Virus record (IMG/VR): IMGVR_UViG_3300038619_000274 | Coordinates: 1 to 36,915 of that record | Origin: a virus | Strand: one strand, 5' to 3' | DNA length: 36,915 nt | Shown here: one piece after another, positions 20,407 through 33,484 of the stretch | How the letters are laid out: each line of letters begins with the position of its first letter | Position numbering within the stretch: the stretch's first letter is position 1 | The notes under the pieces: model-generated | Told to the model about the DNA's origin: nothing | The model's database searches: none | What the model saw: only the letters and a program-made list of their open reading frames with translations | Made by a program: the position numbers and the translations under genes

Positions 20407-22818
20407 ATGGCAAGTCCCCCAGCTCCCGACGATTGGGTCGTGCCGGAGCAAACAAACGCGGCCGCGGCGCCGGCGGACGATTGGGTCGTGCCGAAAGGCT
20501 CGATGCTGGAACGCGCGCACGCGGCGATCGAGGATAGTTCGGTCGGACGCGTGCAGCGCGCGGTGCTCGAGGGCGAGAAGCAAGGCTTCGGCTCCGAGCC
20601 GCTCGGCATTGTCGGCGGCTCGCCGACCGATCAGGCATTGACCAGGCTCGGCATCTTTCATGAGCCGGGCAAGGGTTATGTCGGGCCGCAGGGCACGGTG
20701 CAGCTCCTCGACGAAGCGATATTGCGCCCAAGTGCCGTAGCGGCCGACGCGTTCTTTCGCGCATTGAGCGCGGCGGGCAGCGGCGTCGCCGCCGGCGCCG
20801 GACAAGTGGCGCGCGAATTCGGCCAGAGCGAGCCGCAAGTCCGCAAGCTTACCGGCGACATCCAGACCGGCGAAGAACTCGCCGTGATGTCGCACATACC
20901 TGAGGCGGGCCTACTGGAATCGGGCCGCACTGTCGGCGCGCCGGCCTTCGAGAAAGTCCAAGCCTCGCCCGAGCAGATCGAGGATTTTCTCGCGCAGGCG
21001 GCGCGAGCACCGAACGCACCGACACCGCCGCCGTCAAAGACGCGGCAGGACATCGACGAATTCCTGCGCCAGCGCGAAGCGCGCGAGCAAGGGCAAGCCG
21101 CGCCGGCCGGCACGCCGCAACTGCCGCCGCCGGACGATTGGACGGTGCCGGCGGAGCAGGCCGCACCGGCGCCGCAACCGGCCGCGCCTTCAGGCGGTGC
21201 GCTCGACACGTTGTTCCCCTCACTCGATGAACCAGGCCGCGCGTCACCGCCGCCGGCGCAAGAGGTTGCCGATGATCGTCAAAACGGGGTCGGGCTACCA
21301 GGTGAAGTCGGAGCACGGCAAGAACCTGTCCAAAGCCAATCTGTCGAAGGGCCAAGCGGAGCGCCGGCTGGAGCAGGTGGAATACTTCAAGCACGCGCAC
21401 AAGAAGGGGCACCAGCGCCCGCAAACCAGACTTCAACATCAGCGGTAGGACCGCACACGCTGAAAGCGCTGCTCGACGATCCGCGCTCCGCCGACGAGAT
21501 CAGCGCGATCGCCGCGGCCGAGCATGGTGTCAGCGATGCGGTCGAAGCGCACGCGATCGCCGATGCGTCGTCACCAACCAATCAAATGGTTGTTGACAAC
21601 CAAACGGGGGTTAACCCCCAACCTGCCGTCGAGGACTGGCAAGCGGGCGTCGAAGCTGCAGCGCCGGCCGGCACCCGCGATGATCCAGTCGCGCTGTACG
21701 CGCCTACCGACGTGCACGCCGGCGCCGAGATCACCGCAACGCCGACACAAGGCCAGGCCGAAGCCGGCAATTACCGCAAGCGCCATGTCGAATGGCAGGG
21801 GCTGGATCTCACCGTCGAGACCGAAGCGGGCGCCGCGCGCACCGGCACCGGGCCCGGGGGCGTGCCTTGGTCGGTCACGCTGCAGAACCCCTACGGTTAC
21901 ATCAAGGGCACAAAAGGCCGCGACGGCGAGCAAATCGACGCCTATCTCGGCCCCGAACCGGCCTCCCCGCATGTCTTTGTCGTCGATCAGATCAATCCGG
22001 ATAGCGGCCGATTCGACGAGCACAAGGCGCTGATCGGCTTCGCGGACGAGCAAAGCGCCATTGCCGGCTATGTAGCGGGCTTTTCGGACGGCAGCGGCCA
22101 AGGCCGCCTGGGCGCCATTACGGCGCTCACCGTTGAGGGCTTTAAGGACTGGCTGTCGAAGGGCGTCCGGCGCAACCCCACCGCATACAGCGACCCTGTA
22201 CGCGCGATAGAGGGCGCGGCAAACGAAGCCGGGATGAACCTCACGGACGCCGAGGCGGAAGCCGCGGCTCACGCGAAAAAGGTCAGCAATGCTGACCCAA
22301 CCGAAGCATTACTCACCGTCGTCGATCATCAAGGGCTTGCGGCGGTCGACGGTGCGATAGAGACTGCCAAGACGGAAGGACTCACTGATGCCTGGACTGC
22401 TCACGGCGCGACAGAGAGTGAGGCTGGCGCAGGAATTGCGCCGGCGGGCGAACGGCCAGCCGAACCTGAAAGCGCGGGAGCGGAAGGAATTTCGCCGGCG
22501 AGCGTCGAACCTCATGGCGGCGAACAAGCTGGAAGCGCAGGCGAGCCGAGCGTAGCATCAAAGCCGGCCGCGCCCGTACCCGAGCCGGAAGCCGCGCCCG
22601 TCACGCGTGACGAAGCGCCGGCGGAGCCGAAAATCGTCGAGGCTGTCACCGTCGCCTATCTCAAAGACGTGACGAAGCGCGTGCCGTCTATGGGTGCTGG
22701 CGACAGGACGCGCGCCCGCGAGTTCATCGACACGATGTTGTCCAACATGGACAGCAACGGCAAGAAGCTCGCCGAGCATTGCGTCGAGACCGGCGGCAAG
22801 TTCTCGCTGCGCGGCTAA
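20407..22818 (+). CDS. Polyvalent protein with pyrophosphatase-like domain
   Basis: An 803-residue multi-domain protein, probably packaged and injected with DNA. The motif DDWVVP occurs at residues 8-13 and 24-29, with DDWTVP at 243-248. Residues about 454-585 resemble the inorganic-pyrophosphatase-like domain of phage polyvalent proteins: YGYIKGTKGRDGEQIDAYLG contains a D-G-E-x-I-D signature close to that of soluble pyrophosphatases, followed by HVFVVDQINP and DEHKALIGF. A small C-terminal domain ends with GGKFSLRG. Two stretches linking the domains (about 289-347 and 661-716) are low-complexity and overlap two nested genes in another frame. Substrate and activity are unknown. Confidence 0.75.
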   Translation: MASPPAPDDWVVPEQTNAAAAPADDWVVPKGSMLERAHAAIEDSSVGRVQRAVLEGEKQGFGSEPLGIVGGSPTDQALTRLGIFHEPGKGYVGPQGTVQLLDEAILRPSAVAADAFFRALSAAGSGVAAGAGQVAREFGQSEPQVRKLTGDIQTGEELAVMSHIPEAGLLESGRTVGAPAFEKVQASPEQIEDFLAQAARAPNAPTPPPSKTRQDIDEFLRQREAREQGQAAPAGTPQLPPPDDWTVPAEQAAPAPQPAAPSGGALDTLFPSLDEPGRASPPPAQEVADDRQNGVGLPGEVGARQEPVQSQSVEGPSGAPAGAGGILQARAQEGAPAPANQTSTSAVGPHTLKALLDDPRSADEISAIAAAEHGVSDAVEAHAIADASSPTNQMVVDNQTGVNPQPAVEDWQAGVEAAAPAGTRDDPVALYAPTDVHAGAEITATPTQGQAEAGNYRKRHVEWQGLDLTVETEAGAARTGTGPGGVPWSVTLQNPYGYIKGTKGRDGEQIDAYLGPEPASPHVFVVDQINPDSGRFDEHKALIGFADEQSAIAGYVAGFSDGSGQGRLGAITALTVEGFKDWLSKGVRRNPTAYSDPVRAIEGAANEAGMNLTDAEAEAAAHAKKVSNADPTEALLTVVDHQGLAAVDGAIETAKTEGLTDAWTAHGATESEAGAGIAPAGERPAEPESAGAEGISPASVEPHGGEQAGSAGEPSVASKPAAPVPEPEAAPVTRDEAPAEPKIVEAVTVAYLKDVTKRVPSMGAGDRTRAREFIDTMLSNMDSNGKKLAEHCVETGGKFSLRG
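21272..21448 (+). CDS. Nested small basic phage protein
   Basis: A 58-residue protein wholly inside the polyvalent gene, in the +1 frame. AGAGG at 21261-21265 sits 6 bases before the ATG. The sequence (YQVKSEHGKNLSKANLSKGQ, then AERRLEQVEYFKHAHKKG) resembles a widespread family of small Lys-rich phage proteins with a GKNL ... A..RL.QVE.FKH pattern. Third codon positions are almost all G or C until the last eight codons, as in real genes here, whereas the enclosing frame is locally poor in GC at third positions. Function unknown; a nucleic-acid-binding role is possible from charge. Confidence 0.75.
   Translation: MIVKTGSGYQVKSEHGKNLSKANLSKGQAERRLEQVEYFKHAHKKGHQRPQTRLQHQR
21588..21619. repeat. 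Two adjacent palindromes inside the polyvalent gene
   Basis: GGTTGTTGACAACC (6-bp arms around TG) is followed four bases later by GGGGGTTAACCCCC, a perfect 14-bp palindrome. The stretch is locally A/T-rich within GC-rich coding DNA. It may be a protein-binding site or a remnant of a former intergenic region. Confidence 0.5.
22388..22555 (+). CDS. Nested small Arg-rich protein
   Basis: A 55-residue protein wholly inside the polyvalent gene, in the +1 frame, starting 7 bases after GGAAGGA. It is strongly helical and basic (ARQRVRLAQELRRRANGQ, LKARERKEFRRRASNLMAANK) and resembles small DNA- or RNA-binding phage proteins, but no family is assigned. Third codon positions are strongly GC-biased in this frame, while the enclosing frame is mixed and gives low-complexity Ala/Gly/Glu/Pro sequence. 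It sits exactly at the junction between the pyrophosphatase-like domain and the C-terminal domain. Confidence 0.65.
   Translation: MPGLLTARQRVRLAQELRRRANGQPNLKARERKEFRRRASNLMAANKLEAQASRA
22600..22611. repeat. Repeated palindrome, copy 4
   Basis: GTCACGCGTGAC in the C-terminal part of the polyvalent gene, encoding Val-Thr-Arg-Asp at residues 732-735, 44 bases after the nested gene stop. Confidence 0.85.
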
Positions 22819-25327: not shown

Positions 25328-28300
25328 ATGATCCGCTGTCCCAACTTCCGCTCCGATAAGGCGCGGGATGACTTCAATGCTGTGCTGGCGCGGCTCGGCG
25401 GCGTAGCCATGTCCGCCGACGACATCTCGCCGCGGCAACCCTATCTCGCGCGCCTCAACGAAAAGCAAACGCAGGCTTATCACGTCGCGCACTATTTATG
25501 GAACGCGCACAAGACGCCGGCGGAGATCGGGGCTTTCCTCGATGCACTCGACCAGGTGAGGGATGCGCTGGAGGCAGAGCCGGCGCCGACACCCGCAAAA
25601 ACGCTGGCACCAGCGCAAAAAGCGGAGAACGAAACGGGACGGCCTCCTTCTGTTCCGGGTGACGTAGCGTCAACCGAAGCCGCCCCGCTGTCGAACCTGC
25701 CGGCGATCAATCTGGCGCGGGATCTGCTCGAACGGCTGCGCGCCGGCAAGCCGATCTCGACCAAGATCATGCAGCAGATGGCGGCCGAGATTTATGGCGC
25801 CAAGCTGTCCGAGGGGCATTTCGACCGCAAGGACATGCAGGACGCGCTTGAGCTTGCGGTGAACATGCGGATTGCCGAAGACGCCGCATTGCGCACCGAT
25901 AAGGGCGAGTGGCGCGAGCCGATGGCGAAGCTCGACGAGCTTTTGTCGAAGCTGCCGACACAGCGGGTGCGCTCCGAGGAACAAGAGAGCTTCCAGCAAT
26001 TCTCGACGCCACCGACCTATAGCGCTGCCGCGGCCTATGCCGCGAACCTGCGCGATGGCGACGTCGTGCTTGAGCCTTCGGCCGGCACCGGCTCGCTGGT
26101 CGCGGCGACCTCAAAGCCGGGCGTGAAAATTATCGCCAACGAATTGTCCGAGCGGCGCACCGCGCTGCTGCGCGCGCTGATCGGCGACCGGATTTTTCAC
26201 GAGAACGCCGAGCAGCTCAACAACACGCTGCCCGACAGCGTGAAGCCTTCCATCGTGGTGATGAACCCGCCGTTTTCGCAGACCGCCGGCCGCATGGGCG
26301 ACAAGAAGGTGCCGATGACCGGCGCCATCCACGTCGAGCAAGGCTTAAAGCGCCTCGAACCGGGTGGGCGCCTGGTGGCGATCGTCGGCCGCGGCATGAC
26401 CATGGGGGCGCCGGTCTATCGCGCCTGGTGGTCGAAGATTGGCAAGGAATACACCGTCCGCGCCAATATCGGCGTCGACGGCAAGGTGTTCGAGAAATAC
26501 GGCACCACTTTCGGCACTCGTTTACTCGTCATAGATAAGGTGAAGCCGACCGGCGAAGCGCCGGTTTTGGCAGACGCGCAGACGGTCGATGACCTGATGC
26601 GCGCATTGGAGCCGATCCGAAATGCCCGGACTGCCGCAGAACAACATGGTGCTCAATCGGCTGGCGCTGAATTGGCTGAAGCAAGCCAAGACGCCGGGGG
26701 TGCCCCATTATCTGAACCTGCTGCTGCTGGCGGAGTGGGGCCTGGAGAACGGGGCATCGGGGGGCTGGCCGGAGAAGGAGCGACCAGCACTGCGGGATCA
26801 GGTGAACCTGATGTTCGGGTGGAAGCCGGCGAACACGCTGGCGTGGCTGCTGTCGAACCCGGAAGCGGGCGACCGAGCGGAGCAACAGGACAATCTCCTG
26901 AAGTTGCTGGAGGCCGTGGACAACCCGAAGGACGCGGCGGCGCACGTCCTCAACGCAATCTGGGACCGGCTGGTGGCGACGACGCCGCAGCTACAGCCCG
27001 CAGCGAGCGAGTTGAGCTAGAGCACGCCGAGCCTGGTTCGCAGGGCGCAGCGGAAATTTCCGACAGCCTCTACGATCAGTACCGCCCGCAGCGCGTCAAA
27101 GTGCCGGGCGCCAAGCCGCATCCGTCAAAGCTCGTCGAATCCGCGGCGATGGCATCCGTGCCGCCGCCGGCGCCGACGTACAAGCCGAGCCTGCCGCGCG
27201 CGGTGATCGAGAAGGGCTTGCTCTCCGACGCGCAGATCGAACCCGTCATCTATGCCGGCGAGGCGCACGCCAAGATGTTGCCGGCGGCGGAAGGCGAGCC
27301 GGCGAGGCGCAAGGGCTTTTTCATCGGCGACGGCACCGGCGTCGGCAAAGGCCGCGAGGTCGCCGGCATCATCCTCGATAACTGGAACCAGGGGCGCACC
27401 AAGGCCGTGTGGGTGTCGGAGAAGCGAAAGCTGCTCACCGACGCCAAGCGCGACTGGAAGGGGCTGCAACAAAACCCCGATCACCTTTTCGACGTGGGCA
27501 AGGTCAAGACCGGCGAGCCGATCGACGCCAAGAAGGGCATCGCGTTTGTTACCTACGACACGCTCAAGGGCGGCATGTCGGATCAAGCGGCGCTCTCCCG
27601 CGGCGGTTTCGTGCGCAAGCAGTCCGTCTCGGTCAACGGCCAGCCTGGCTTGGTGCAATCGGTCGGCAAAGTCGCGCGCGGCAAACCGGCGCAGATCACC
27701 GTCAAGCTCGAAAACGGCACCACCGTCACCGTGCCGGCGAAAGAAGTGAAGGCGGAGGAAAAGGCCGCGGTCAAATCGCGCATCGACCAGCTCGCCGATT
27801 GGTTCGGCAAGGACTTCGACGGCGTGATTGCTTTCGATGAAGCCCACAACATGGGCAACGCCACCGACACCAAGGGCGACCGCGGACAGAAAGACGCGGC
27901 GATGAAGGCAATCGCCGGCATGGACCTGCAGAAGCGGCTCCCCAACGCCCGCATTGTCTATGTCTCCGCCACCGGCGCCACCGAGGTTTCCAATCTCGCT
28001 TATGCCGATCGGCTCGGGCTGTGGGGCAGGGGCACGCCGTTTGCCTCGCGCGCCGCGTTCGTCTCGCAAGTCACCGAAGGCGGCATCGCGGCGATGGAGC
28101 TCATCGCCCGCGACATGAAGCAGCTCGGCCTCTACACCGCGCGCAATCTCTCCTATGACGGCGTTGAATACGATCGCGTCGAGCACAAGCTCGATGCCAA
28201 CCAGCGCGAGATTTACGACACGTTGGCGCAAGCCTGGCAGGTGGTGCTGCGCGACATCAACGCGGCGCTCAAGCTCACCGGCGGCAACTTCGACAGCCGC

Positions 28301-31300
28301 GCGAAGTCCGCCGCCATGTCGGCGTTTTGGGGCGGCCATCAGCGGTTTTTCAATCAGATCATCACCTCGATGCAGATGCCGTCCGTCGTCAAGGCGGTCG
28401 AGCAGGATCTCGCGGCCGGCCGGCAGGTGGTGCTGCAACTCACCAACACCAACGAGGCGTCGCAGGAGCGCGCCGCGGCGAAAGCGCAGACCGCCGAGGA
28501 CATCGAGGACCTCGACATCACGCCGCGCGACCAGATCATCCAGCTCGTCGAAAACTCGTTCCCGACGCAGGAATATGAAACCTACGTCGACGACGACGGC
28601 AAGGAGCGCTCGCGCCCGGTGGTCGATAGCAACGGCAATGCGGTGCAGAACAAGGAAGCCGTCGCCATGCGCGAGCGGCTGATCGACCAGTTGGCTTCGG
28701 TGCGCGTGCCGCAGGGACCGCTCGACCTGGTGCTCGATCACTTTGGCGTCGATACGGTCGCCGAAGTCACCGGCCGCGGGCGCCGTTTTGTGCTCAAGCC
28801 CGACGAGAAAACCGGGCAGAAGCGCCGCGTCGAGGAAAGCCGGCCGGGCTCGGCCAACCAGGCGGAGACCGACGCCTTCCAGGAGGGCAAGAAGAAAGTC
28901 CTGATCTTCTCGGAAGCCGGCGGCACTGGCGCGTCTTACCATGCCGACAATACCGCGGCCTCGAAGGACGCGCGGCGCTCGCACTACCTGGTGCAAGGCG
29001 GCTGGCGCGCCGACAAGGCGGTGCAGGGCTTTGGCCGTACCCACCGCAGCAACCAGGCGTCGGCGCCAATCTTCCGGCTGGTGACGACGGACCTGCAGGG
29101 GCAGAAGCGGTTTATCTCCTCGATCGCGCGCCGGCTCGGGCAGCTCGGCGCGCTCACCAAGGGCGAACGCAAAGCCGGCGACCAAGGCATCTTCTCGGCC
29201 CGCGACAATCTCGAAAGCACCGAGGCGCGCACCGCGCTCACACAGTTTTTCCGGGACATCTACAACAACGCCGTTCCCGGCATCGACATCAACGACTTCG
29301 AGGAACAGACCGGCCTGAAGCTGCGCAACAAGGACGAGGAAGGCCGCAGCATGGGGATGCTGGAGGACTTGCCGCCGATCACGCAATTCCTCAACCGGCT
29401 ATTGTCGCTCAAGTTCGACCTGCAGAACACCACGTTCAACTCGTTCTCGGAACGGCTCGACGCGGTGATCGAGGCGCGGCGCGAGGCCGGCCTGCTCGAT
29501 GTGGGCCTGGAAACCGTCAAGGCCGACAAGATCGCCAAGGAGACCGAGCAGACCGTGCATACGGTCGAAGGCTCGGGCGCGCAGACAAAATACGTCAAGC
29601 TGAAATTGTCAGACAAGTTCAAGGCCACCGACTTCGATACCGTGGCCTCGAACGAATGGCGCAAGGTGACGGCCTGGCTCGAAAGCCCGAACGGCAAAGT
29701 GTACGCCGCGGCCGAGGCGCCGAGCCTCACGGACGCCAGCACCGGCCGCATCATCGACAGCTATCGCCTTGTCAGTCCGGTGTCGGATTCGCGCACCATC
29801 AACAAGGAGAACGTCGAGAAGCCCGATACCAAGTGGAAGAAGATCGAAAAGAGCGAAGCCTCCGCGCTGTGGCGCAAGGAGATCGCCGCCGCGCCTGAGT
29901 ATGTCACGCGTGACATGCACCTGATTACCGGTGCGATCCTGCCGATCTGGGATCGGCTCAAAGGCAACCCCCGCGTGGTACGGCTTGCGACCGAGGCCGG
30001 CGAGCGGCTGATCGGGCGCGTTGTGCCAAACGACGCGATCGCCGCCACGCTTAAAGCTCTCGGCGCCGAAGCAAAGGCACAGAGCTACACGGCCGCGGAC
30101 GTGTTCCTGAAGGTGCGCGCCGGCGGCCGCGCTACGCTGGCAAACGGCTGGACCTTGAGCCGGCGCCTGGTCGCCGGCGAGCACCGCATCGAATTGACCG
30201 GCCCGAGCGCATTTTCCGAAGCGCAGGAGGTCAAGAAAGACGGCGTGTTCACCGAGCGCATCGACTATAAGACGCGGTTTTTCGTGCCGACCGACGCCGA
30301 AGCAGGCTCTCGCGTCATCGAGCGCCTCACCCAATACCGGCCGGTGACGGACCTGGTGGAGCGCGGCGCCGCACCCCACGACATGGCCGCCGGCGACGAG
30401 CCGATGTTCTCGGTGAAGGGCGACGATCGTGTTAAGGGCGAAAGCGACGCACTCGCGGAAGCGGTCGCGCGGCGTCTTTTGCCGGCGTTGCGCGCCGAGC
30501 TTGACCGGATGGGCCTCTCGGACATTCCGCTCAATCTGCCCGGCACGCTGACGGCGCGCATCGGCGCCAAAAAGTACGAACTCAACGGCTATTACTTCCG
30601 CCAAGCGATCACGATTGCGCTCAATGCCGAAGACATCGGGCGAACCTTGCACCATGAGGCGCTGCACGCGCTTCACGATCTCGGGGTGTTCAAAGACACC
30701 GAATGGCAAATCCTGACGCGGCAATCCGACCGCGCCTGGCGCAAGCAATTCCGCATCGAGGAGGGTTACGCGCATCTGGCTGATGAGCTGCGCACCGAGG
30801 AAGGTATCGCCCACGCCTACGCCGCCTGGGCAAAAGGCGAGATGAAAGTGGACGGTCGGATCGCCCGGCTGTTCAAGCGCATCCGCGACTTCTTCGAAGC
30901 GTTGCGCAACGCGCTGCGCGGGCTTGGCTTCAAAAGCGCCGAGGACGTGTTCCGCAACATCAAAGAAGGCGAGATCGGGAACCGAGCACGCGCCGGCGCC
31001 GGCGACGAGCCGATGTTCGAGATGCGCCGGGACAATGCGCCGGCGGAAGCTCGCGCCACGCCGAACCTCAACCGCCGCATCCGCGACCGCATCGAAGCGG
31101 CGCTCGACAGCAAGTTCGGCCGCAAATTCATCGAGGGGACGCAAGACCTCTCGCACCCGGTCAAGCTCTTGCAGGACGAGCTTGAAATGCGCCGGGAAGG
31201 CGCCTTCGAGGACCCGGAGGACTTCTACACCCGCAAGCGCCTTTATCCCGGCCGCGTCGGCGCCTGGACCGACACCTTCAACAAGAAGCATCTCGATCCG

Positions 31301-33484
31301 ATCGTGCGGCTGTTGAAGGCCAACAATATTCCGCTAGCCGACGCCGGCGACTTCCTCTACGCGCTGCACGCCGCCGAGCGCAACGAGGCCATGGACAGGA
31401 TCAATCCCGGCCTTGGCGGCGAAGGCTCGGGCATGTCGAACGAGGAAGCCGCCAAGATCATCGCCGAAGTCAAGCGCGGCGAGCACGCCGCCGCCTTCGA
31501 CGAGCTGCGCGAGAAAGTCGGCAAAATCCGCGACCTGATCCTCAACGTGATGGAGAAGTCCGGGCTAGAAAAGCCCGAGGTCATCGCCGAATGGAAGAAA
31601 CGCTACGAGGACTATGTTCCGCTGCGCGGGTGGGAAGTGGAGCCGGACGATGCGCCGCCGGAATTTCGCGGACCTGGCGCTGGCTTCAATGTCCGCGGCA
31701 AAGAGGTCAAGCAGGCGCTTGGCCGCCGCTCGAAGGCCGACAACCCGATCGTCAACCTGTTTGACCAGGCGTATCGCACCTTCGATCGCGCCGAGCGGAA
31801 CCGTTACCTGCAATCGCTCTACCGCGCGATTGATGATCTCGGCGACGAGGCGTCCGACGTCGCCACGCTCGATCGCGGCAAGCCGCAGCGCACCATAGAC
31901 AAGCGCACCGGCCTGGTCAAAACCGTGGAGAATTCCGGCCAGTATATGAACCCGAAGGCGGTCTATCTTAAATTCGACGGCAATCCGCACTTCATGGTGT
32001 TTGCCGATCAGGAGCTTGCCGAAGCGGTCAAGCGCATGAGCGCGGACAGCGTAGGCATCTTTCACGCCTATCTGAAGCTGCAGAACAAGATGAAGGCGCT
32101 ATGGACGCATTACAGCCCCGACTTCTTGTTCCGGCATTTCATGTTCCGCTACCCGATCGAGGGCGCGCTCAACTCGTTCGAGCAAAAGGAGGGCGGCGAG
32201 CATAAGGTCAATCAGTATATCCGCGACGCCTTCCCGTTCGTCGGCAGGGCCAGCAAAGCTATCTTTGCTTCCAACAAGGGGATCGTTCACGACGATCCAG
32301 CAATCCGGGAAATGCAGGAGGTATGGGATAAAGTCCGGCGCGGCGGCGGGGCGATGATGTTTCGCAACATGCGCGACATCGACCTCACCCGCGAGCACCT
32401 GCAGACCGCGCTCAAGGACTTGTCCGATCGGCCGCTCGCCAACGCGCGCGCCAAGTGGCGGCACGGCATCGAGGCGTTGGATACAATCACCAATGCGCTC
32501 GACAACTCGCTCCGGCTAGCTGCGGCATATTCTGCGATCAAGCAAGGCAAGACCGTGCAGCAGGCGGCGCTGATCGCGCGCGAGGCCACGGTTGATTTCC
32601 AGCTCAAGGGCCGCTGGAACAACCTCATGGGCATCTTCTTTCCGTTCTCCAACGTCGCCATCCAGACCACCGCGCGGATGACCAAGGCGGTTTATCGCTC
32701 GCGCATCATGCGGCGCGTGTTCGGCTCGACGCTGCTCGCGGGCTTCCTCGTGTCGGCGTTCAATTATCTCGTCGCCGGCGACGACAAGGACAGCATCCCG
32801 TTCTTCGACAAAATCCCGGAGTGGGACCGGCGGCTCAACTTCATCATCCTCAACCCGTTCGATACCGACGACAAAGGCCCGCAGCCGATCAAGATACCGA
32901 TGCCGTACAATTGGGCGTTCCCGCTCGTGCTCGGCTACGCCTTCGGCGGCATGATGTTCGGCAAGGAAGGACCAAAAAAACTGATGACCATGCTGGCACG
33001 CTCGGCAATGGAGACCTTCACCCCGCTCGGCTCGGAACAGAACCTCGCCGGCATAGCGACGCCGGAAGCCTTCCGGCCGCTCGTTCACATCTACACCAAC
33101 GAGGATTGGGCCGGGCGCCCGATCCACGTCGACCCCGATTTCCAGAAACGCCCGAACGCCTATTCGCCGAGGAAAACCACCGGCGCCGGCTGGTCGGCGA
33201 TCGCCAAGGGCGTCAATACCGCGACCGGCGGCTCACCAGGCAAGTCCGGCGTGCTCGACCTCTACCCCGAAGATTACCGGGAAATGATCGACCAGTTCGC
33301 CGGCACGCAAATCCGGCTCGGACAGAACATTTGGGACACCGGCGAATCGGTAGCCGAAGGCAAATGGCCGCAAGCGACGAAAATCCCGCTCGAACGCGTC
33401 ATCCGCGGCACCGACTATGACGCCGCCGATCGCGCGCGCGGCGATGAAGCACGCGATCGACAAAAGCATCCGTGGAAGCACTGA
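25328..33484 (+). CDS. Giant DarB-like polyvalent protein (methyltransferase-helicase-protease)
   Basis: A 2718-residue protein, probably injected with DNA to block host restriction, as P1 DarB does. Domains in order: N-terminal region; adenine N6-methyltransferase (about 220-420) with LEPSAGTGSL and NPPF near 313-316; low-complexity linker (about 435-580); SF2 helicase of the strawberry-notch type (about 580-1300) with Walker A GDGTGVGKG (from 667), DEAH (837-840), SATG (about 879) and QGFGRTHR (1233-1240). A zincin follows with HEALH at 1776-1780, then helical regions and an LPD38-like C-terminus with hydrophobic helix GSTLLAGFLVSAFNYLV and the motif DLYPEDY. DEPMF motifs occur before and after the zincin. 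There is no good ribosome site at the ATG; MSADDIS at 25412 is an alternative start. The linker contains a nested gene. Confidence 0.85.
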   Translation: MIRCPNFRSDKARDDFNAVLARLGGVAMSADDISPRQPYLARLNEKQTQAYHVAHYLWNAHKTPAEIGAFLDALDQVRDALEAEPAPTPAKTLAPAQKAENETGRPPSVPGDVASTEAAPLSNLPAINLARDLLERLRAGKPISTKIMQQMAAEIYGAKLSEGHFDRKDMQDALELAVNMRIAEDAALRTDKGEWREPMAKLDELLSKLPTQRVRSEEQESFQQFSTPPTYSAAAAYAANLRDGDVVLEPSAGTGSLVAATSKPGVKIIANELSERRTALLRALIGDRIFHENAEQLNNTLPDSVKPSIVVMNPPFSQTAGRMGDKKVPMTGAIHVEQGLKRLEPGGRLVAIVGRGMTMGAPVYRAWWSKIGKEYTVRANIGVDGKVFEKYGTTFGTRLLVIDKVKPTGEAPVLADAQTVDDLMRALEPIRNARTAAEQHGAQSAGAELAEASQDAGGAPLSEPAAAGGVGPGERGIGGLAGEGATSTAGSGEPDVRVEAGEHAGVAAVEPGSGRPSGATGQSPEVAGGRGQPEGRGGARPQRNLGPAGGDDAAATARSERVELEHAEPGSQGAAEISDSLYDQYRPQRVKVPGAKPHPSKLVESAAMASVPPPAPTYKPSLPRAVIEKGLLSDAQIEPVIYAGEAHAKMLPAAEGEPARRKGFFIGDGTGVGKGREVAGIILDNWNQGRTKAVWVSEKRKLLTDAKRDWKGLQQNPDHLFDVGKVKTGEPIDAKKGIAFVTYDTLKGGMSDQAALSRGGFVRKQSVSVNGQPGLVQSVGKVARGKPAQITVKLENGTTVTVPAKEVKAEEKAAVKSRIDQLADWFGKDFDGVIAFDEAHNMGNATDTKGDRGQKDAAMKAIAGMDLQKRLPNARIVYVSATGATEVSNLAYADRLGLWGRGTPFASRAAFVSQVTEGGIAAMELIARDMKQLGLYTARNLSYDGVEYDRVEHKLDANQREIYDTLAQAWQVVLRDINAALKLTGGNFDSRAKSAAMSAFWGGHQRFFNQIITSMQMPSVVKAVEQDLAAGRQVVLQLTNTNEASQERAAAKAQTAEDIEDLDITPRDQIIQLVENSFPTQEYETYVDDDGKERSRPVVDSNGNAVQNKEAVAMRERLIDQLASVRVPQGPLDLVLDHFGVDTVAEVTGRGRRFVLKPDEKTGQKRRVEESRPGSANQAETDAFQEGKKKVLIFSEAGGTGASYHADNTAASKDARRSHYLVQGGWRADKAVQGFGRTHRSNQASAPIFRLVTTDLQGQKRFISSIARRLGQLGALTKGERKAGDQGIFSARDNLESTEARTALTQFFRDIYNNAVPGIDINDFEEQTGLKLRNKDEEGRSMGMLEDLPPITQFLNRLLSLKFDLQNTTFNSFSERLDAVIEARREAGLLDVGLETVKADKIAKETEQTVHTVEGSGAQTKYVKLKLSDKFKATDFDTVASNEWRKVTAWLESPNGKVYAAAEAPSLTDASTGRIIDSYRLVSPVSDSRTINKENVEKPDTKWKKIEKSEASALWRKEIAAAPEYVTRDMHLITGAILPIWDRLKGNPRVVRLATEAGERLIGRVVPNDAIAATLKALGAEAKAQSYTAADVFLKVRAGGRATLANGWTLSRRLVAGEHRIELTGPSAFSEAQEVKKDGVFTERIDYKTRFFVPTDAEAGSRVIERLTQYRPVTDLVERGAAPHDMAAGDEPMFSVKGDDRVKGESDALAEAVARRLLPALRAELDRMGLSDIPLNLPGTLTARIGAKKYELNGYYFRQAITIALNAEDIGRTLHHEALHALHDLGVFKDTEWQILTRQSDRAWRKQFRIEEGYAHLADELRTEEGIAHAYAAWAKGEMKVDGRIARLFKRIRDFFEALRNALRGLGFKSAEDVFRNIKEGEIGNRARAGAGDEPMFEMRRDNAPAEARATPNLNRRIRDRIEAALDSKFGRKFIEGTQDLSHPVKLLQDELEMRREGAFEDPEDFYTRKRLYPGRVGAWTDTFNKKHLDPIVRLLKANNIPLADAGDFLYALHAAERNEAMDRINPGLGGEGSGMSNEEAAKIIAEVKRGEHAAAFDELREKVGKIRDLILNVMEKSGLEKPEVIAEWKKRYEDYVPLRGWEVEPDDAPPEFRGPGAGFNVRGKEVKQALGRRSKADNPIVNLFDQAYRTFDRAERNRYLQSLYRAIDDLGDEASDVATLDRGKPQRTIDKRTGLVKTVENSGQYMNPKAVYLKFDGNPHFMVFADQELAEAVKRMSADSVGIFHAYLKLQNKMKALWTHYSPDFLFRHFMFRYPIEGALNSFEQKEGGEHKVNQYIRDAFPFVGRASKAIFASNKGIVHDDPAIREMQEVWDKVRRGGGAMMFRNMRDIDLTREHLQTALKDLSDRPLANARAKWRHGIEALDTITNALDNSLRLAAAYSAIKQGKTVQQAALIAREATVDFQLKGRWNNLMGIFFPFSNVAIQTTARMTKAVYRSRIMRRVFGSTLLAGFLVSAFNYLVAGDDKDSIPFFDKIPEWDRRLNFIILNPFDTDDKGPQPIKIPMPYNWAFPLVLGYAFGGMMFGKEGPKKLMTMLARSAMETFTPLGSEQNLAGIATPEAFRPLVHIYTNEDWAGRPIHVDPDFQKRPNAYSPRKTTGAGWSAIAKGVNTATGGSPGKSGVLDLYPEDYREMIDQFAGTQIRLGQNIWDTGESVAEGKWPQATKIPLERVIRGTDYDAADRARGDEARDRQKHPWKH
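26622..27020 (+). CDS. Nested 132-residue protein inside the giant polyvalent gene
   Basis: An open frame in the +1 frame of the giant gene, lying exactly on the linker between the methyltransferase and helicase domains. Composition is that of a globular helical protein (LNRLALNWLKQAKTPGVP, YLNLLLLAEWGLENG, VNLMFGWKPANTLAWLLSNP, LLKLLEAVDNPKDAAAH). Third codon positions are nearly all G or C in this frame, while the giant frame here has many A/T third positions and encodes Ala/Gly/Glu-rich sequence. GGAG at 26608-26611 is ten bases from the ATG, a weak site; the ATG at 26646 is an alternative. No family recognised; function unknown. Confidence 0.7.
   Translation: MPGLPQNNMVLNRLALNWLKQAKTPGVPHYLNLLLLAEWGLENGASGGWPEKERPALRDQVNLMFGWKPANTLAWLLSNPEAGDRAEQQDNLLKLLEAVDNPKDAAAHVLNAIWDRLVATTPQLQPAASELS
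29903..29914. repeat. Repeated palindrome, copy 5
   Basis: GTCACGCGTGAC within the giant polyvalent gene, encoding Val-Thr-Arg-Asp. Flanking bases extend it to ATGTCACGCGTGACAT, a 16-bp perfect palindrome. Confidence 0.85.

Follow-up and report, generated by a model that had tools for sequence, protein, structure and literature searches.

The window, that is, the whole stretch of 36,915 nucleotides that was analysed, is a virus record containing portal, major head and terminase genes together with a gene for a giant multi-domain protein, within which a much shorter open reading frame (ORF) lies fully nested in the +1 frame. The features concerned are the following.

25328–33484, + strand: parent gene, 2718 aa, comprising methyltransferase, linker, Strawberry-notch helicase and LPD38
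25928–26611, + strand: methyltransferase domain of the parent; N6_Mtase match under the Pfam cut-off (E 0.1), NPPF motif conserved
26608–26611, + strand: GGAG, Shine-Dalgarno-like, 10 nt upstream of the nested ATG
26622–27020, + strand: nested gene, 132 aa, +1 frame relative to the parent, ATG at 26622 and TAG at 27018–27020; predicted all-helical globular protein
26645–26995, + strand: parent-frame linker, residues 40–156 of the modelled segment, pLDDT below 50, predicted to be disordered
27068–29515, + strand: Strawberry-notch-type helicase module of the parent, AAA_34 and Helicase_C_4 (Pfam)
32804–33391, + strand: LPD38 polyvalent-protein domain of the parent (domain match)

The parent shows the fusion of a methyltransferase with an SF2 helicase by which DarB-like proteins are recognized, the AAA_34 and Helicase_C_4 matches being strong and the N6_Mtase match sub-threshold with a conserved NPPF motif. 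A polyvalent parent is also in keeping with the occurrence of LPD38 alongside the portal, head and terminase genes of the window and, as a second fitting context, with the relaxase and coupling-protein genes that adjoin the long-form parent on plasmids. In a Pfam scan of eight nest-bearing parents, the helicase domains alone were common to all, the methyltransferase being placed via alignment, and the remaining domains varied; ArdC-N/zincin was found in the parent on a plasmid. Elsewhere in the window (20407–22818), a second multi-domain protein contains a domain resembling inorganic pyrophosphatase (InPase), of a type that phage polyvalent proteins are known to carry.

The initial annotation had placed a 132-residue ORF inside the methyltransferase-helicase gene, and it is found at exactly that position. 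It had also been called the longest nested frame, which is incorrect, since four same-strand nested ORFs (143–199 aa) and several on the reverse strand (up to 753 aa) exceed it. Its description as Leu-rich and unlike the usual Arg/Pro-rich shadow frames holds: among the ten nested ORFs on the same strand that reach 80 aa, it alone is Leu-rich, Arg/Pro-poor and high in GC3, with a Leu fraction of 0.18 (0.01–0.09 in the nine others), an Arg plus Pro fraction of 0.12 (0.24–0.34) and a GC3 of 0.86 (0.36–0.73). The length of the window ORF is no better than chance, the frame staying open in 69% of synonymous reshuffles of the parent (P = 0.69), and an open frame is improbable under the same shuffling at four other loci (L023, L026, L036 and L040; P 0–0.01). 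Chance is exceeded in conservation, in the codon-position signature, at the start sites and in the predicted fold, not in length. As to the codon-position signature, the GC3 of the parent, mostly 0.7–0.9 along the gene, is 0.44 and 0.38 in two 150-nt blocks (26678–26977), where the GC of its codon position 1 climbs to 0.84 and 0.90; because parent position 1 is nested position 3, the coding signature switches frame over these blocks. An Ala/Gly-rich parent produces part of this shift, and the switch is therefore counted as supporting evidence only. Family-wide, the mean GC1, GC2 and GC3 of the nested frame are 0.64, 0.37 and 0.75, and nested GC3 tracks that of the flanking methyltransferase (r = 0.85, 85 loci).

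No relative was returned by tblastn of the window nested protein against cultured phages or by a single-sequence scan of viral contigs, and relatives were reached via the parent protein instead. When the nested protein was compared by tblastn with ten parent-found loci, a +1 frame in the same place was matched in L002/L004 (one contig), L003, L005 and L006; L007 was matched at E 0.002, L008 and L009 weakly, and L010 and L011 not at all, while direct reading revealed a comparable ATG-started frame in all nine distinct loci. Identity of the nested frame was 68, 53, 46 and 34% in L002, L003, L005 and L006, respectively, against 57, 43 and 40% for the parent linker in the first three and none detected in the fourth. 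Scans with the methyltransferase-linker-helicase alignment found at least 79 viral and at least 80 genome loci, and the 169 listed loci, including the window, reduce to 153 unique linkers, 93 of at least 320 nt and 60 shorter. Among the matches listed, 88 of the 93 long linkers hold a +1 ORF of at least 60 aa that starts with ATG near the methyltransferase end, and the iterated family profile matches 85 of these 88 ORFs but none of the 23 comparable ORFs of short linkers; the profile was built from the same loci that it counts, and only the plasmids and new genome matches described below were held out.

The three long-linker ORFs without a profile match belong to L061, L087 and L110, and the five long linkers without such an ORF to L083, L111, L112, L114 and L116, of which L083 and L112 still hold a long, unmatched +1 frame and L111, L114 and L116 belong, in the parent-domain tree, to the clade of short linkers. 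This clade (SH-aLRT 100 in an unrooted tree made by a quick method) gave no profile match in 8904 stop-to-stop frames from 63 loci, among the matches listed. Nest-bearing parents have a median open length of 3363 aa (26 complete) and nest-less ones of about 1470 aa (53 complete), a correlation that counts as a single event because it follows one split in the tree. At L087 (6692–7042) and L110 (6692–7069), the same slot is occupied by a different +1-frame ORF, the two being 38% identical to each other and unmatched by the main-family profile; judging from sequence, the slot may have been re-filled, or the ORF may have diverged past recognition. Four other loci (L090, L113, L188 and L192) carry roughly 300–420 nt of extra parent-frame sequence after the nested stop and ahead of the helicase, indicating that inserts land beside the nested gene.

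With a profile made without them, the nested ORF was recovered in all four held-out plasmids with the long form (E 4e-22 to 6e-27), those of Methylotuvimicrobium alcaliphilum 20Z (NC_016108), Methylomonas LL1 (NZ_CP064652), Thioflavicoccus mobilis and Methylomonas AM2-LC. It is absent from the gene tables of the first three, tables that are themselves incomplete, and the AM2-LC record has no annotation at all. On the T. mobilis plasmid, no gene is listed across the whole methyltransferase-linker-helicase stretch (L174:6001–8250), where perhaps the parent is broken and the nested ORF still open. The profile had no significant match in 24 kb of phage P1 including darB or in Bacteroides phage BS-TP4. 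Searches that started from the nested family rather than from the parent gave exactly one match in each of 48 of 50 viral records, which had been chosen for the methylase-helicase dyad, and were positive in 13 of 15 source genomes and, within one order, in 19 of 301, four of which were already known. Among the 22 loci from the two genome searches, some of which are training sequences, 21 sit between methyltransferase and helicase, the exception being a locus whose parent frame is truncated downstream of the methyltransferase. Two nested copies (L179 and L229) occur in a single genome, G058, each within its own methylase-helicase gene.

That the nested frame is selected as a protein is indicated by two comparisons. 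In all 14 pairs formed with the window, nested similarity exceeds a null in which synonymous codons are permuted within each parent linker, both parent proteins and the codon counts being kept (z 6.7–22.2). Among six close relatives, pN is lower than pS for the nested frame in 15 of 15 pairs and for the parent linker frame in only 5, with pN above pS in the other 10, and the flanks are clearly constrained; these are simple pairwise counts in which the overlap is not modelled jointly. The start sites are likewise distinctive. A Shine-Dalgarno match of at least 4 nt precedes 67 of 85 nested starts, as compared with 6.8, 9.0 and 9.0% of 1198, 1272 and 133 control ATGs in the three frames (2603 in total). 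The parent codons that hold the nested ATG are AAT (52), GAT (29), CAT (3) and TAT (1), and the frame is open for a median of only 8 codons ahead of the ATG (3 or fewer in 15 of 85).

Modelled alone by AlphaFold2 from 60 aligned members, the nested protein is predicted to be helical (pLDDT 92.3, pTM 0.85; helices at residues 5–8, 10–21, 32–42, 51–64, 69–76, 85–98, 102–120 and 128–131), a confidence that depends on aligning these very +1 frames, whereas the parent frame over the same stretch reaches a pLDDT of 58.7 (27 aligned sequences). Profile searches of 60 nested members against PHROGs, Pfam and NCBIfam gave scattered weak matches, each family being hit by one member; ten standalone members (see below) against Pfam and NCBIfam likewise pointed to no consistent family, and the single window protein matched no Pfam family. 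The nested proteins thus appear, as far as these sequence searches reach, to form a family without described relatives. The best structural matches were not significant (Foldseek E 0.94 in the PDB and 0.83 in BFVD; VIA-align Z 3.3 over 53 residues), a result that does not show a new fold. A profile search of the PDB returned repeated weak matches to sigma-70 at family profile positions 13–39, not significant (E 0.94–10), a sequence-level lead toward a possible link with RNA polymerase. Far from being predicted as disordered and devoid of homologues, the protein has a confident helical fold and relatives, and the proposal that a globular protein overprints the linker is strongly supported by the conserved family, the confident fold, the disordered parent linker and the free-standing homologues described next.

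Wider searches from the nested family were positive in 6 of 398 genomes from the phylum of a Peptococcaceae genome, in 1 of 399 from the order of a Burkholderiaceae genome and in 1 of 247 from the phylum of a Bacteroidetes genome; two draws that overlap, made around G054 and G058, gave 11 of 297 and 9 of 247. Only three of the 16 resulting loci (L200–L215) lie inside a dyad, and the strict proposition that the family occurs only ever inside this parent was dropped, 13 of them lying outside. Around these 13, no trace of methyltransferase or helicase rose above noise; 11 are full-length free-standing genes, one is a match with two internal stops and one a fragment. By BLASTP, standalone L216 matches nested L023 at E 5.5e-35 (42% identity) and L221 matches L092 at E 8e-25 (46%), the best values of the other nine standalone genes against nested members being E 6e-12 to 2e-18; one more standalone candidate (L230) lies in a 3.3 kb stretch. 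The Strawberry-notch helicase was undetected in all 13 genomes with non-dyad homologues, which are possibly incomplete, and was detected in all five nested-form carriers that served as a positive control. The genes around the standalone copies differ from locus to locus, among them Ppx/GppA with a PAS histidine kinase, rubrerythrin with a NapC-type cytochrome, peptidase M29, NUDIX and PCMT, and no consistent gene partner emerges. In L223, L224, L225 and L226, the standalone gene lies beside or near a Ppx/GppA phosphatase gene (by Pfam in L223, by resemblance in L224 and L225), and in L223, L225 and L226 a PAS histidine kinase/response regulator gene directly adjoins it. Standalone copies occupy three places in the family tree, implying three changes, although the tree is poorly resolved, with few columns and unsettled bootstrap values; these placements make repeated escape or repeated capture likely as judged from sequence.

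It is very probable, given the sequence comparisons and the structural model, that 26622–27020 is a real, fully nested out-of-frame gene with a compact predicted helical fold. The least probable account is that the long open frame has no function and is a by-product of an Ala/Gly-rich linker encoded in high-GC DNA. The persistence of the window frame under synonymous shuffling would suit it, and on the length of the window ORF alone a chance frame would not have been ruled out; it is ruled out by conservation beyond the synonymous-permutation null and by the standalone homologues, and the improbably open frames at the four loci named above, the ribosome sites and the predicted fold are likewise at odds with a by-product. 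Hardly less improbable is programmed frameshifting, which would join the nested sequence to the parent in an alternative product fused to the methyltransferase. Such events exist, and a long open overlap on the same strand in the +1 frame is what they would require, but a frameshift product is disfavoured by the start-site data, namely the conserved ATG with its ribosome site and the few open codons ahead of it, which leave little room for entry from upstream, as well as by standalone homologues that start at a similar place. The nested gene, with its own conserved ATG and putative ribosome-binding site, would be read as a protein by ribosomes initiating internally on the parent mRNA, so that synthesis of the small protein would keep pace with that of the giant one. 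The parent frame running through it yields, on prediction, a disordered and weakly constrained spacer that separates the methyltransferase from the helicase.

As to function, the nested protein may, less surely, be a small acidic accessory, an escort or regulator that, within the producing cell, keeps the transferred methylase-helicase in solution, inactive or competent for transfer, a role argued by analogy with VirE1 and P1 Ulx and held at somewhat below even chance. It would be consistent with the single copy in 48 of the 50 viral records, with carriers that differ in their domains outside the methyltransferase-helicase module and with a small, mildly acidic family (median 126 aa, pI 4.8 and net charge -6; pI 5.3 and net charge -3 in the window member). 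This charge looks too small for a DNA-mimic antirestriction protein of the kind of Ocr and ArdA, and that candidate was rejected. The nest-less clade and P1 darB do without the nested gene, and the 13 genomes with non-dyad homologues gave no Strawberry-notch match, both of which weigh against an accessory. The modulation of the flanking domains raised by the initial annotation is possible: it is weakly favoured by the position of the nested gene between the two domains in almost every phage and plasmid carrier seen, and is countered by homologues that stand alone where the helicase was undetected (0 of 13; control, 5 of 5). We give the same tentative weight to the reading that the small protein works independently on a cellular target of its own, be it in host takeover, regulation or anti-defence, the linker being a convenient site that ensures co-expression. 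The 11 full-length free-standing genes without methyltransferase or helicase traces, together with the further candidate, argue for it, and at least where no helicase was detected a role outside the dyad must exist; against it stand the single linker copy in the dyad-chosen virus records and the 21 of 22 loci between the two domains. Escort or regulator and independent effector or regulator thus appear about equally likely, the standalone copies weighing for the latter. Put together with the accessory role, the fuller history, which we offer with still more reserve, would be that providing room for the gene is what the linker is for: a giant transferred antirestriction protein came to overprint a small folded one, the read-through becoming a disordered spacer, and the arrangement has persisted in phages and conjugative plasmids of several phyla since the small protein must be made in step with, and act on, the methylase-helicase, copies having escaped as ordinary chromosomal genes.

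To our knowledge, long conserved same-strand overlapping genes encoding a stably folded protein have rarely been documented in bacteria and mobile elements, and they tend to escape standard annotation. A whole family appears to have been overlooked inside a known antirestriction protein class, sequenced plasmids included; its folded inner gene set against a disordered outer frame would offer a clean system for studying how overlaps originate and persist, and its product is a candidate partner in the handling of giant methylase-helicases before transfer. Lambda Rz1 in Rz and comS in srfA are fully nested out-of-frame genes with complete overlap on the same strand and a separate product. The present case differs from both in that the inner gene is predicted to be folded and constrained and the outer frame a disordered linker, and in its spread over very diverse elements of several phyla. 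No account of the nested gene was found in the open-access literature searched on overlapping genes with DarB-type proteins, and it could be described elsewhere.

The parent itself resembles the methylase-helicase dyad of polyvalent proteins, with P1 DarB as the archetype, in being an adenine methyltransferase fused to an SF2 helicase (PMC5512222). In its main text, where the words 'overlapping' and 'linker' are absent, that source (Iyer et al. 2017) proposes that proteins of this class are transferred along with DNA and names a Strawberry-notch-type version of the dyad in Methylomonas (PMC5512222). P1 darB differs from the parent in its helicase type and in having no nested-family match. Two further sources describe DarB as packaged in the P1 head and list its 17-kDa neighbour Ulx as aiding DarB localisation (PMC9024508, PMC12810830). 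Ulx thus resembles the nested gene as a small protein encoded beside a DarB-type gene (PMC9024508), but it is a separate downstream gene, and homology was rejected, none being detectable from the single Ulx sequence (hhalign probability 0.1). A second parallel is VirE1, described in PMC5389803 as a small acidic chaperone that is produced along with its cargo, the transferred DNA-binding protein VirE2, which has two folded domains and a flexible linker. Although VirE1 is encoded by a separate gene and the likeness is one of description, the nested protein, too, is small, acidic and encoded with its presumed cargo.
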